Source: Sordariomycetes sp. S80-01Y
Taxonomy: Eukaryota > Ascomycota > Sordariomycetes
DNA length: 64,000 nucleotides
Assembly (NCBI GenBank): GCA_037042185.1
Contig: JAXQJY010000026.1
Location: 1,674,001 to 1,738,000 of the forward strand
Direction of reading: 5' to 3'
Positions 47,108-50,750 of the stretch are shown here, one piece after another; position 1 is the stretch's first letter, and the number at the start of each line of letters is the position of its first letter. The position numbers and the translations under genes were made by a program. Under the pieces are notes generated by a model. That model was not told the DNA's origin and searched no databases. It saw only the letters and a list, made by a program, of their open reading frames with translations.

Positions 47108-48677
47108 TCATGCTGTTTTCCCCAAATGCTCCAAGGAGTTAAAGTGAACTCCAGCGTAGGCGGCGGGTTTGCCTTGTGCTACAAGGTCGTCCTCAATGTC
47201 CATCAACCGATTGTACTTAGCTACTCTCTCTCCACGTGCTGGTGCACCGGACTTCAAATGACCTGCTCGAAGCCCAACCGTTAAGTCTGCAATAAAATCA
47301 TCCGTAGTCTCGCCTGAGCGGTGGGACACGAACACATTCCAGCCAAATTTCGTGCACATGTTGTTTCTGTATTCATTAGCTTCCGGTCTAAACAATGTAC
47401 ACTGTTACTCGTAGTGGCTTTACTCACGCTTCGATAGCCTCGCTAATGGTGCCAATCTGGTTGACCTTCAGTAGCATGGAATTACATGCCTTTAGGTCCT
47501 TTGCTTTCTTTAGACGCTCCACATTAGTGGTGAGAAGATCATCACCCACCAATTCGATAGAACAGTGCTTGTTGTACTCGGTCCAGGAAGGCCAGTCATT
47601 CTCGGCGAATGGATCTTCTAGAAGCACCACAGGGTACTTTGATACAAGGTCATCGTACAATTTTGAGAGCTCACGGGGTGACAGAGGTTGCGGTTGAGTA
47701 TCCTTCATACCCATGTCGTAGGAGCCAGACTTGAAAAACTCCGAGGAAGCGGGATCGATGCCAAATTTTATTTTTCCGGTGTAGCCAGCTTCCTCGACTG
47801 CTGTAGTCAGAAGATCAAGGGCCTCATGGGGTTCCCGGATGGGCGGTGCAAATCCACCCTCGTCGCCCAAGCCAGCCGCTTACGTCAAATGTCAGCTATA
47901 AACCGCAATAGACTAAGAGGCTTGCTGTATGGCTTACCGACTTGACCCCATTCTCTCTCAATAACCTTCTTCAGTTGGTGGTAGGTCTCGGCGCCCATCT
48001 GGACGGCCTCTTTCATGCTAGCAGCGCCAGTAGGAGCAATCATGAACTCTTGAAAAGACATGGTGTTCCCGGAGTGGACACCACCGTTGAGGACGTTGAA
48101 GAACGGGACAGGCATTATCAACCCATCCGAGAGACCAGCTTCTTTTCGGAGATATTCGTAGAGCGGTAGGTCCTGAAGAGTATGGTCAGTCAGCGATGCG
48201 CAGGTGTTCGCTCCTGAACAGTGTCCCTTACTGAAGCGGCGGCGCCGGCTCTGGCACAAGCCATACTGACTCCAAGAATTGCATTGGCCCCCAGGTTCGA
48301 CTTATTGGGAGTTCCATCCACCTTTCGCATGAGTTCATCGATCTCTTTGAGATGTGTGCTGGGGTTTAGCTTTGCGTTCATCACTGCGGGTCCGATCACC
48401 TCGACAACGTTGCGGACAGCTTTCTCGACCCCCTTCCCATCGTACACACTGTCGATATCGTCGCGCAGCTCTGCTGCTTCAGTCAAGCCGGTCGACGCCC
48501 CAGATGGAACAATGGCATGAAAAGTACCTATTCCCGGATGTGAGAGTCTTAGCAAAAGTCCTCAAAGGCACAGGCATAGAAACGGCAGGGCTGACCTTGA
48601 GGCGTAGTGACATGAACTTGGACAGTGGGGTTACCTCGCGAGTCCAGTCGCTGTGCGGCGGTGATAGAGCTGATCAT
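47108..48677 (-). CDS. diverged enolase (2-phosphoglycerate dehydratase)
   Basis: There are five exons, 48677-48596, 48527-48232, 48172-47938, 47878-47428 and 47387-47108, giving 447 residues. Enolase converts 2-phosphoglycerate to phosphoenolpyruvate and needs two Mg ions. The N-terminus is canonical ([22 protein letters not shown]). Metal and catalytic residues are present: [10 protein letters not shown] (Glu211 equivalent), GIDPASSEF (Asp246), LLEDPF (Glu295), [10 protein letters not shown] (Asp320), LLKVNQIGT (Lys345) and VSHRSGET (His373). It is slightly longer than standard fungal enolase (about 438). There is a six- to eight-residue insertion before [13 protein letters not shown], and loop changes such as [14 protein letters not shown]. 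This points to a diverged paralog. It is divergent from the FEX gene, and enolase is the well-known fluoride-inhibited enzyme. Confidence 0.9.
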
Positions 48678-49106
48678 GACTAGAGTAGGCGGGCGTATGA
48701 TGAGTTTGCGAGTAATCGATCATCGAAACATTAGAAGTGGATAGAGCGACTGGCAGCTTTATATATGTTCTCTAATCACAAGATCTCGACATGGCCTATG
48801 ATATACCCTAGTAGTTAACGTCATGATTGCTTCATCGATTTTAGTTTGGTGTGGCTACGCTACTAAGTGCTACGTACTCCTACTAAGCAATGCTAAGTGC
48901 ACTTAAAGACTCAATGTCGTGGAGTCCGATTGTTCCGCATTCACCGACGTACCCGATGTACCCGATGTATCCGATCGACCCAGCACTCAACGGCTACTAT
49001 ATCAGTAGACCAGGCTAAAGGAGCCCCAAATATAATTCGATGCGCGACTACTTCATCTCTACCTGAGAGTTTTCATCTTTCTCGTTGCGAAGTGGAGGAT
49101 TTCATA
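48678..49106. promoter_or_regulatory. divergent promoter of enolase and fluoride exporter
   Basis: This is 429 bp shared by two divergent starts. It contains repeated CTACTAAG/GCTAAGTGC words (48855-48900) and a short tandem GTACCCGAT repeat (about 48945-48970). Joint control of both genes is plausible from the layout. No known binding site or riboswitch was recognised. The FEX frame is open upstream from 48897 but without conserved sequence. Confidence 0.5.
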
Positions 49107-50750
49107 ATGTCGATGTCAAGCTACAAACAAGGACTGAGCGAACTTGTTGCGCCAGCCCTGGAACCGGCTTCTGGTGCGCAAACCGAAGAAGTTACCGATA
49201 AACCGAAACAGTTGCCAGAAGTAGACACTGCCAACCGGCGACAGAAGAATTCTTCTCACCGCCCTCCTAATAGCCACGAAAGCTTCCTCCCATCCGACAA
49301 CGAAAGGGGCTACGGTCCAGGGACCAGCAACCACTACAATGAGGAGGAAGATGGCGAGGACGACTATGCGTACCCGTCTGGCATCGCCAATCTGACGGAA
49401 CTGGCTCCCGAGGAAGTCGTCGAGAATCCCAACGAGGCGCGCCATTTCTCTCAACATAGTCTCGAAGGGGAACTCAGCCGAGGTGCGGAACAGGAGTCGA
49501 AACATGAGCAACGACTGTCCGTCGCAGGGTCGGTGTGCGGTAGTAGCAGCATGAATGGTAGCCGCAACGTCAGCAAATTCATGACGACCGTCTTCATCAC
49601 GTCGCATCTGGTCTTCTTTTCTATTCTGGGCACAGTGGCACGTCAAGGTATCAGCTCCCTGACAACGTACCCAGCCAACTTGCCTAGTCTGTGGCCTAAC
49701 TTCGTTGGATCCCTGATCCTTGGGTTTCTCGTCGAGGGTTCCGAGCTATTCCGTCACCCCAAAGCTACGAGGAGCCTATCCAGGCGTAATGAGGGGTCTC
49801 AAAAAGCCGACCATGTAGCATCATCATCATCCTCATCACCACCGTCTGCTGCACCCGACGCATCCAGTCCTGAGGAGGCAACAGGCAGCATCAATCCGAT
49901 GGATGTTGATACTGATACTGGTAGTACTGAGCCTCTTGCTCCGGTCCCGCTTCATATTGGACTTGCGACTGGCTTTTGCGGATCCCTCACCACGTACTCG
50001 GCCTTCATGCGCGATTGTTTTGATGCCCTGGCAGGCTTATGGACAAGCTCGAGCGTGAATCCTTCTCCGGGACAGAACTTCATGCGAGTGTGCGCCGTTC
50101 TTTTTCTCACCTTGGCATTGAGCATTTCGGGTCTCCGTGCGGGAGCTCATACCGCCATTTTCCTCGCAAGCTATGAGAAGCGTCTTCCGAGACGTGTTCT
50201 ACGTTACTTAGACTGGCTCGCCGTGCTTTTGGGCGTTGGACTCTGGATTGGTGCGATGATTATTACGATTTGGCCTCCAGACAGATTCAGCGATTCCCTC
50301 GATACGTCGGGTGCTCAGCACACATGGCGCGGTGAGATTTGCTTCGCTGTAGTCTTTGCTCCACTTGGGACTCTGATCAGGCTCGTGTCGAGCACGAAAC
50401 TGAATACTCGCATTGTTGGCTTCCCGCTTGGGACGTTCTTCTCCAATATGTTCGGTACCTTGATCTTTGCAATTGTGTGGGACCTTCAACGTCTGCCGGA
50501 TCAAGGCATGCACAACACCGTTGAGAGAAATCTGCTATCGTGCCAAGTTCTGCAAGGTATCGAAGACGGGTTCTGCGGGTGCTTGACAACGGTCAGTACC
50601 TGGGTCGTGGAACTAAACAGCCTCCGGAGACGTCATGCGTACCAATACGCACTCATGAGTGTTGCCACAAGCTTGGGTATCGTCGTCGTGGTGATGGGGT
50701 CCCTGAAATGGTCTGCTGGGCTGGAAACGCCCATTTGTACAGCATTGTAA
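49107..50750 (+). CDS. FEX1: fluoride exporter (FEX, fused CrcB pair)
   Basis: This is an intronless gene for 547 residues from the ATG at 49107. A hydrophilic, acidic N-terminus of about 155 residues is followed by two CrcB/Fluc domains in one chain, the usual eukaryotic FEX arrangement. Domain 1 (about 160-370) has ILGTVARQGISSL, LWPNFVGSLILGFLVEG and GLATGFCGSLTTYSAFMRD. Domain 2 (about 405-545) has APLGTLIRLVSST, FPLGTFFSNMFGTLIFAIVWD and GFCGCLTTVSTWVVEL. The conserved Asn of each channel (NFVGS, NMFGT) and the GFCGxLTT(Y/V)S loops are intact. FEX proteins expel fluoride passively across the plasma membrane. A Ser-rich insert (residues 230-275) is unusual but typical of filamentous fungal FEX. 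It is divergent from the enolase gene. Confidence 0.92.
   Translation: MSMSSYKQGLSELVAPALEPASGAQTEEVTDKPKQLPEVDTANRRQKNSSHRPPNSHESFLPSDNERGYGPGTSNHYNEEEDGEDDYAYPSGIANLTELAPEEVVENPNEARHFSQHSLEGELSRGAEQESKHEQRLSVAGSVCGSSSMNGSRNVSKFMTTVFITSHLVFFSILGTVARQGISSLTTYPANLPSLWPNFVGSLILGFLVEGSELFRHPKATRSLSRRNEGSQKADHVASSSSSSPPSAAPDASSPEEATGSINPMDVDTDTGSTEPLAPVPLHIGLATGFCGSLTTYSAFMRDCFDALAGLWTSSSVNPSPGQNFMRVCAVLFLTLALSISGLRAGAHTAIFLASYEKRLPRRVLRYLDWLAVLLGVGLWIGAMIITIWPPDRFSDSLDTSGAQHTWRGEICFAVVFAPLGTLIRLVSSTKLNTRIVGFPLGTFFSNMFGTLIFAIVWDLQRLPDQGMHNTVERNLLSCQVLQGIEDGFCGCLTTVSTWVVELNSLRRRHAYQYALMSVATSLGIVVVVMGSLKWSAGLETPICTAL

Follow-up and report, generated by a model that had tools for sequence, protein, structure and literature searches.

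An extra enolase gene beside a fluoride exporter gene: a probable accessory fluoride-resistance pair in a Sordariomycete

Why would a fungus keep an enolase gene head to head with a fluoride exporter gene? Fungal fluoride resistance is usually told as the work of one export channel, and yeast Fex1p is said, in the title of a reference, to be "constitutively expressed." In a 64,000-nucleotide stretch of the genome of Sordariomycetes sp. S80-01Y (assembly GCA_037042185.1, contig JAXQJY010000026.1; hereafter the window), a reading made from the letters alone (the sequence-only reading) had picked out such a pair, here called ENO2 and FEX2, and proposed that it forms a cassette of exporter and target enzyme. 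We examined the pair within the whole genome (30.9 Mb in 16 contigs; the window is C9:1674001-1738000) and in other fungi. The results favor ENO2 and FEX2 being an accessory fluoride-resistance pair, which probably forms the center of a cluster of four genes, the other two encoding a SLAC1-family anion channel and a Zn2Cys6 regulator.

The layout is as the sequence-only reading gave it, in coordinates and exon count. ENO2 (47108..48677, minus strand) consists of five exons (48596-48677, 48232-48527, 47938-48172, 47428-47878, and 47108-47366) and FEX2 (49107..50750, plus strand) of one. Both genes are intact, and a divergent intergenic promoter region of 429 bp (48678..49106) separates their start codons. 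The four ENO2 introns, 59-68 bp long, share a GT start, and their last letters are CAG or TAG in three cases and AAG in the other. The spliced frame of 1323 bp encodes 440 amino acids without an internal stop, matches the Pfam models Enolase_N (residues 2-134) and Enolase_C (145-431), and has enolases as its closest relatives of solved structure. The enolase had been called diverged, and it is 51.6% identical to ENO1, the canonical enolase of the same genome. All of the catalytic and metal-binding residues that we checked are kept: S39, H159, E168, E211, D246, E295, D320, K345, H373, R374, S375, and K396, in yeast enolase numbering.

Within loop 1, H43 is replaced by T in ENO2 and in eight of the nine relatives in its subclade, which also differs near a metal ligand (T321). 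We treat these differences as leads toward a possibly altered binding of fluoride and not as evidence of it. Tolerance of an enolase has a precedent, of small effect: one Streptococcus mutans strain has an enolase that is less fluoride-sensitive, by too little to explain its resistance (PubMed Central [PMC] article PMC5508371).

FEX2 encodes 547 amino acids and matches the CRCB model (PF02537) over two stretches, with 109.1 bits against a cut-off of 32.9. When compared with the Pore II motifs given in PMC5417652, the protein keeps GxxxR, the N in transmembrane segment 2 (TM2), PxGTxxxN, YxxxS/T, and the aromatic residue and Glu of TM8. The TM3 motif ooFooX (o = S/T) reads TTYSAF in FEX2, so that the pore Phe has become Tyr and the second hydroxyl pair is Ser-Ala. 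On the basis of its CRCB domains and pore motifs, FEX2 is a predicted fluoride exporter. The TM3 Tyr (residue 297) occurs in 22/39 rows of the FEX2 set versus 1/83 of the FEX1-type set, and the Ala in 27/39 versus 11/83; in these counts, rank and not the tree decided the assignment for the majority of the 83 FEX1-type rows, and P0165 stands in the FEX1-type set although the tree places it in the FEX2 clade.

Both genes have ordinary counterparts elsewhere in the genome. A whole-genome search listed four enolase matches at two loci, ENO2 (matched in three of its exons) and the canonical, intron-containing ENO1 on C12, and the FEX matches listed likewise fell at two loci, FEX2 and FEX1 on C6. 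With one ordinary enolase and one ordinary FEX elsewhere, on different contigs, ENO2 and FEX2 are both extra copies; ENO2 is thus not the only enolase of the genome, and its description as an additional copy stands. Codon usage differs between the two enolases. ENO1 is strongly biased (effective number of codons [ENC] 33.8; guanine-plus-cytosine [GC] content at third codon positions [GC3] 0.76), as expected of a housekeeping glycolytic gene, whereas ENO2 shows no bias (ENC 57.7, GC3 0.56), as expected of a conditional copy, which counts in favor of an accessory role. FEX2 is likewise unbiased (ENC 56.5, GC3 0.57), and FEX1 is intermediate (51.7, 0.72).

When the rest of the genome was searched for another copy of the pair, just three short matches of 88-141 bp came up, one to FEX1 on C6 and two to the DNA directly downstream of FEX2. 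The downstream stretches concerned, window positions 50842-50979 and 51051-51138, match sequences on C16 and C13 at 74-78% identity and are perhaps remnants of a dispersed repeat.

All 120 ENO2 matches listed, from many orders, are closer to ENO2 than to ENO1, which makes ENO2 a member of a broad family of second enolases in Pezizomycotina. Across Pezizomycotina, the family is 48-57% identical to ENO1 of the source genome; the papers listed in a literature search did not deal with it. In the enolase tree (59 rows, including 57 of the 120 listed matches), ENO2 is grouped in a subclade of ten rows (support 100/99) that also takes in Stylonectria, Apiospora, Pestalotiopsis, Xylaria, and Fusarium denticulatum. 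The FEX tree, which took in 61 of the 120 FEX matches listed, places FEX2 in a 40-row clade (100/99) apart from FEX1. Stylonectria sits on the first branch of both the ENO2 and the FEX2 groups as drawn with a midpoint root. No viral contigs encoding enolase or FEX were confirmed.

We next turn to linkage in other fungi, judging same-contig status from coinciding contig sizes and from the locus tags given with the 120 enolase and 120 FEX matches listed. Exactly three contigs coincide, each within one species: a 75,742-bp contig of Stylonectria norvegica (tags G7046_g4049 and g4052, three apart), a 181,972-bp contig of Xylaria curta, and a 682,674-bp contig of Xylaria scruposa. The genes are therefore linked in three of the four species listed with both ENO2-type and FEX2-type relatives.

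A further case came from a FEX-only scan of a prokaryote genome collection, which gave one locus (L035, NYXK01000105.1), a fungal contig in a metagenome-assembled genome (MAG) of Deltaproteobacteria. The contig is Leotiomycete-like and mis-binned. It carries an intron-containing ENO2-family enolase gene (start 7689, stop 9230) and, on the same strand and 740 bp downstream, a FEX gene (9971-11605). The enolase shares 89% identity with an Oculimacula protein and belongs to another part of the ENO2 tree (in a tree that took in 46 of the 120 listed enolase matches). The FEX fits a Hyaloscypha-like FEX1-type clade, as P0159, which we equate with it from name and length. Since the FEX type and the orientation both differ from those of the FEX2 pair, the association of FEX with enolase is not tied to one FEX type or one orientation. 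About 5.5 kb past the FEX gene is a frame pair that has a Fungal_trans domain. Linkage of FEX and enolase thus recurs in some fungi, without being universal, and the pair is not unique to its source genome. The idea of the sequence-only reading has accordingly survived two of its three refuting conditions, a genome with no other enolase and a lack of recurrence in related genomes. As a side observation, the MAG is a public species representative (the stretch is contig 109 of G001), and a fungal stretch with enolase and FEX within it makes the bin look contaminated.

Does the unit end with two genes? Downstream of ENO2, at 40.4-44.4 kb, lie two further intact genes: one for a SLAC1/TDT-family anion channel (40444..41830, minus strand; exons 41273-41830 and 40444-41166; 426 amino acids) and one for a Zn2Cys6 transcription factor (42130..44391, minus strand; exons 44293-44391 and 42130-44223; 730 amino acids), a candidate regulator of the cluster. 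The SLAC1 protein matches a tellurite-resistance/dicarboxylate transporter model, with a score below the model's cut-off, and had no match among solved structures. A SLAC1 paralog at C6:690594-691659 is 66% identical over the first exon and 76% over the second.

The SLAC1 promoter and the ENO2-FEX2 promoter contain the same short array. In the FEX2 promoter (48950..48973, plus strand), it reads TACCCGATG TACCCGATG TATCCG, with a period of 9, and lies 133 bp 5' of the FEX2 ATG; in the SLAC1 promoter (42043..42066, minus strand), it is (TACCCGNNN)x3, also with a period of 9, 212 bp 5' of the SLAC1 ATG. Both arrays read in the direction of their own gene, and the Zn2Cys6 gene lies between them. 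As a three-copy TAYCCG(N3) pattern, the array has two exact sites in the 30.9 Mb, these two, 6.9 kb apart, and no one-mismatch site in the genome. With up to two mismatches there are nine rows (five within the two arrays, four elsewhere) versus 26 for the reversed control. The pattern TACCCGNNNTACCCG has five occurrences at four places in the genome, versus 19 for the backwards pattern, and its two remaining sites, each of two copies, fall inside long open frames. An array common to both regions appeared in none of 20,000 shufflings, and in 25 of 40,186 pairs of real 400-bp neighboring pieces. In the stretches compared around FEX1, ENO1, the SLAC1 paralog, and the L035 genes, there was no exact site. 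CGG/CCG repeats are the typical targets of Zn2Cys6 proteins, making the cluster's own factor the natural candidate to bind the array. A shared control element is plausible, and because the SLAC1 and ENO2-FEX2 promoters have the array in common, the two-gene cassette of the sequence-only reading is probably too small: the pair is real, but two genes are probably too few.

We propose that FEX2 would give cytoplasmic fluoride a way out, while ENO2 would keep glycolysis going as residual fluoride inhibits the housekeeping enolase. ENO2 could protect by extra dosage and possibly also by lower sensitivity. Fluoride would be the inducer, and co-regulation, perhaps including SLAC1 in the response, would run through the common (TACCCGNNN)x3 element, for which the Zn2Cys6 factor of the cluster is the most likely binding protein. 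If the recurrent exporter-enolase pair is what it appears to be, the defense of some fungi extends to the enzyme that fluoride poisons, as it does in bacteria. The locus would also supply a candidate eukaryotic fluoride-responsive promoter element together with its regulator, and the widespread second enolase of filamentous fungi would gain a testable role.

Several observations weigh against this proposal. As the checked catalytic residues of ENO2 are unchanged, they give no sign of fluoride tolerance. The array was first noticed by eye, making its statistics post hoc, and at L035 one two-copy match with one mismatch lies about 2 kb beyond the FEX gene and none near it. Linkage is also incomplete. 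In the two Xylaria species the linkage is one of a shared contig and not of adjacency, two locus-tag numbers intervene in Stylonectria, and Pestalotiopsis NC0098 has its ENO2-type and FEX2-type genes on different contigs. Among six species outside the ENO2 subclade for which the listed matches include both a FEX and an ENO2 of the broader kind, none has a shared contig (Hyaloscypha variabilis, whose enolase and FEX records may come from different assemblies, Rhypophila decipiens, Naviculisporaceae PSN 640, Apodospora peruviana, Coniochaeta 2T2.1, and Cercophora scortea). Several fungi with a FEX2 (Diaporthe, Nemania, Cryphonectria, P. fici, and others) have no ENO2 among the 120 listed matches. 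The metagenomic contig with the ENO2 fragment nearest to ours (81% identical; contig of 24,041 bp) has no counterpart of equal size among the FEX rows. Finally, a search of metagenomic contigs for FEX2-ENO2 linkage, using an exon-4 profile (alignment A1, 8 of 10 rows, omitting Xylaria curta, whose model is without part of the exon, and P0005), gave no credible shared contig. Sizes were given for 119 of the 120 rows, and one coincided with that of a FEX row; at 1,975 bp, this contig is too short for both frames, so the coincidence is due to chance.

The cluster lies in an island of lower GC content (26000..64000) that extends about 14 kb past the window, spanning approximately 52 kb (C9 ~1,700,000-1,752,000). 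GC content is 0.51-0.58 in the first 16 kb of the window and 0.55-0.60 at 16-26 kb, falls to 0.42-0.55 in the island, which starts at 26 kb and runs on for about 14 kb beyond the window's end, and is mostly 0.52-0.61 thereafter. The composite index of repeat-induced point mutation (RIP) is -0.33 to -0.35 at the pair versus -0.47 to -1.07 in the first 26 kb. RIP decay of the pair was considered and set aside, as the index is well below zero there and positive only at 62-64 kb. The flanking DNA had been described as decayed. This suits the stretches at 44.4-47.1 kb (where Pfam gave no match for a frame of 298 aa, 45269-46165) and 50.8-54 kb, which look gene-poor, but not 40.4-44.4 kb, with its intact SLAC1 and Zn2Cys6 genes.

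Our Pfam scan covered 31 of the 91 window frames (at least 130 aa). Near the left island edge is a DUF3723 gene (26496..29097, plus strand). A FAD_binding_8 open frame (58388..59119, plus strand), part of a gene and without an NCBIfam match, carries a domain that occurs in ferric reductases and NADPH oxidases. A DUF7104 repeat protein (60614..61216, minus strand) contains 96-bp tandem repeats at 60693-61149 that encode DUF7104 units. A patatin frame (L027:2492-3493) lies in the island as well. Separately, 57-bp tandem repeats at 32968-33506 lie inside a long open frame (32287-34245, minus strand) without a Pfam match.

DUF3723, ferric reductase, and patatin-like genes are described as prevalent or notable in the Starships of Pezizomycotina, of which captain-less "derelict" forms are mentioned (PMC12134995). 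Like these elements, the island has DUF3723 and patatin frames; for a ferric reductase, it has only one FAD_binding_8 frame, maybe of such a gene. It differs in having no DUF3435 captain on C9, where the search for one failed (the only two genome matches listed are on C3 and C1); a self-comparison of 124 kb revealed no long repeat joining the island edges. With no captain on C9, a derelict Starship is at most a possibility. The idea that the pair is accessory cargo thus agrees with an accessory-looking, lower-GC island, while the evidence that this island is of a mobile type is suggestive only. Further DUF3723 loci occur at C15:439680-441245 and C3:362765-363913, the latter about 18 kb from a listed DUF3435 match.

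These surroundings bear on other explanations. The island, with its DUF3723, FAD_binding_8, DUF7104, and patatin frames, its gene-poor stretches, and a RIP index somewhat above that of the left flank, could be a degraded Starship-like element in which the pair is a decaying passenger, no longer expressed. We regard this as highly improbable, as all four cluster genes are intact, the checked enolase and FEX residues are largely kept, and the RIP index remains well below zero. ENO2 might instead be an ordinary, old enolase paralog of the kind found in Pezizomycotina, serving glycolysis or gluconeogenesis at a particular stage, that came to lie beside FEX2 by chance in an accessory island. The breadth of the second-enolase family and the six species that lack a shared contig fit this idea. 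It has difficulty with three same-contig pairs in matching subclades, one with tags three apart, and with the 740-bp adjacency in a distant lineage; by a rough reckoning (two or three enolases in a genome of about 50 Mb, with a span of 20 kb), one such adjacency would arise by chance about 1 in 1000 times. We consider it unlikely.

A further alternative, also rather unlikely, concerns the function of the whole cluster. The island could serve toxic-anion or acid stress in general, with SLAC1 and the Zn2Cys6 factor handling sulfite or organic anions and with FEX2 and ENO2 co-opted for mixed stress. The SLAC1 family includes the Ssu1 sulfite pumps. SLAC1 and the regulator are intact neighbors, the array is present in both promoters, and the sub-threshold transporter match and the C6 paralog of SLAC1 also agree with such a function. 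At L035, however, the enolase adjoins FEX with no SLAC1 match in the 10 frames scanned. We retain the fluoride-resistance pair, with its probable two partners, as the likely explanation.

How does this locus compare with known systems? Like S. cerevisiae Fex1p and other fungal FEX proteins (PMC5417652), FEX2 has two CRCB domains, GxxxR, PxGTxxxN, YxxxS, and the TM8 aromatic residue and Glu; it differs in its TM3 Tyr and Ser-Ala and in its placement in a clade separate from FEX1 of the same genome. None of the open-licence PMC papers that our searches brought up describes a fungal FEX-enolase pair in its title, abstract opening, or consulted passages, and the synteny legend of PMC8896014 has a fluoride export gene and no enolase. 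The bacterial parallel drawn by the sequence-only reading is real. Enterobacter cloacae FRM carries, on a genomic island, the operon ppaC-uspA-eno-gpmA-crcB-orf5249 with a fluoride riboswitch (PMC5533749). The operon is induced by fluoride (eno approximately 177-fold), knockout and complementation show its role in high resistance, and the authors describe additional copies of inhibited enzymes (PMC5533749). We detected no pyrophosphatase or phosphoglycerate mutase among the 31 window frames scanned with Pfam, and no Rfam match at all, so no fluoride riboswitch either, at E <= 1 in window positions 39000-52000.

ENO2-FEX2 thus resembles the E. cloacae operon in placing an extra enolase next to a CrcB-family exporter, an arrangement that recurs, though not in every species. 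The two systems differ in that the bacterial genes form a riboswitch operon, whereas the fungal genes are divergent eukaryotic genes with a candidate protein regulator and a promoter array. The simplest reading is that the bacterial exporter-plus-target logic operates here without a riboswitch, and fungi may use the pump-plus-target defense known from bacteria. More tentatively, the locus could represent a eukaryotic fluoride regulon, in which the Zn2Cys6 factor, acting through the (TACCCGNNN)x3 element, would jointly induce a spare enolase and two channels, one for fluoride and one for other anions, and which would have spread in Pezizomycotina via a Starship-like island. Such a regulon, itself somewhat less likely than not, might be a protein-based counterpart of the bacterial eno-crcB operon and its fluoride riboswitch.

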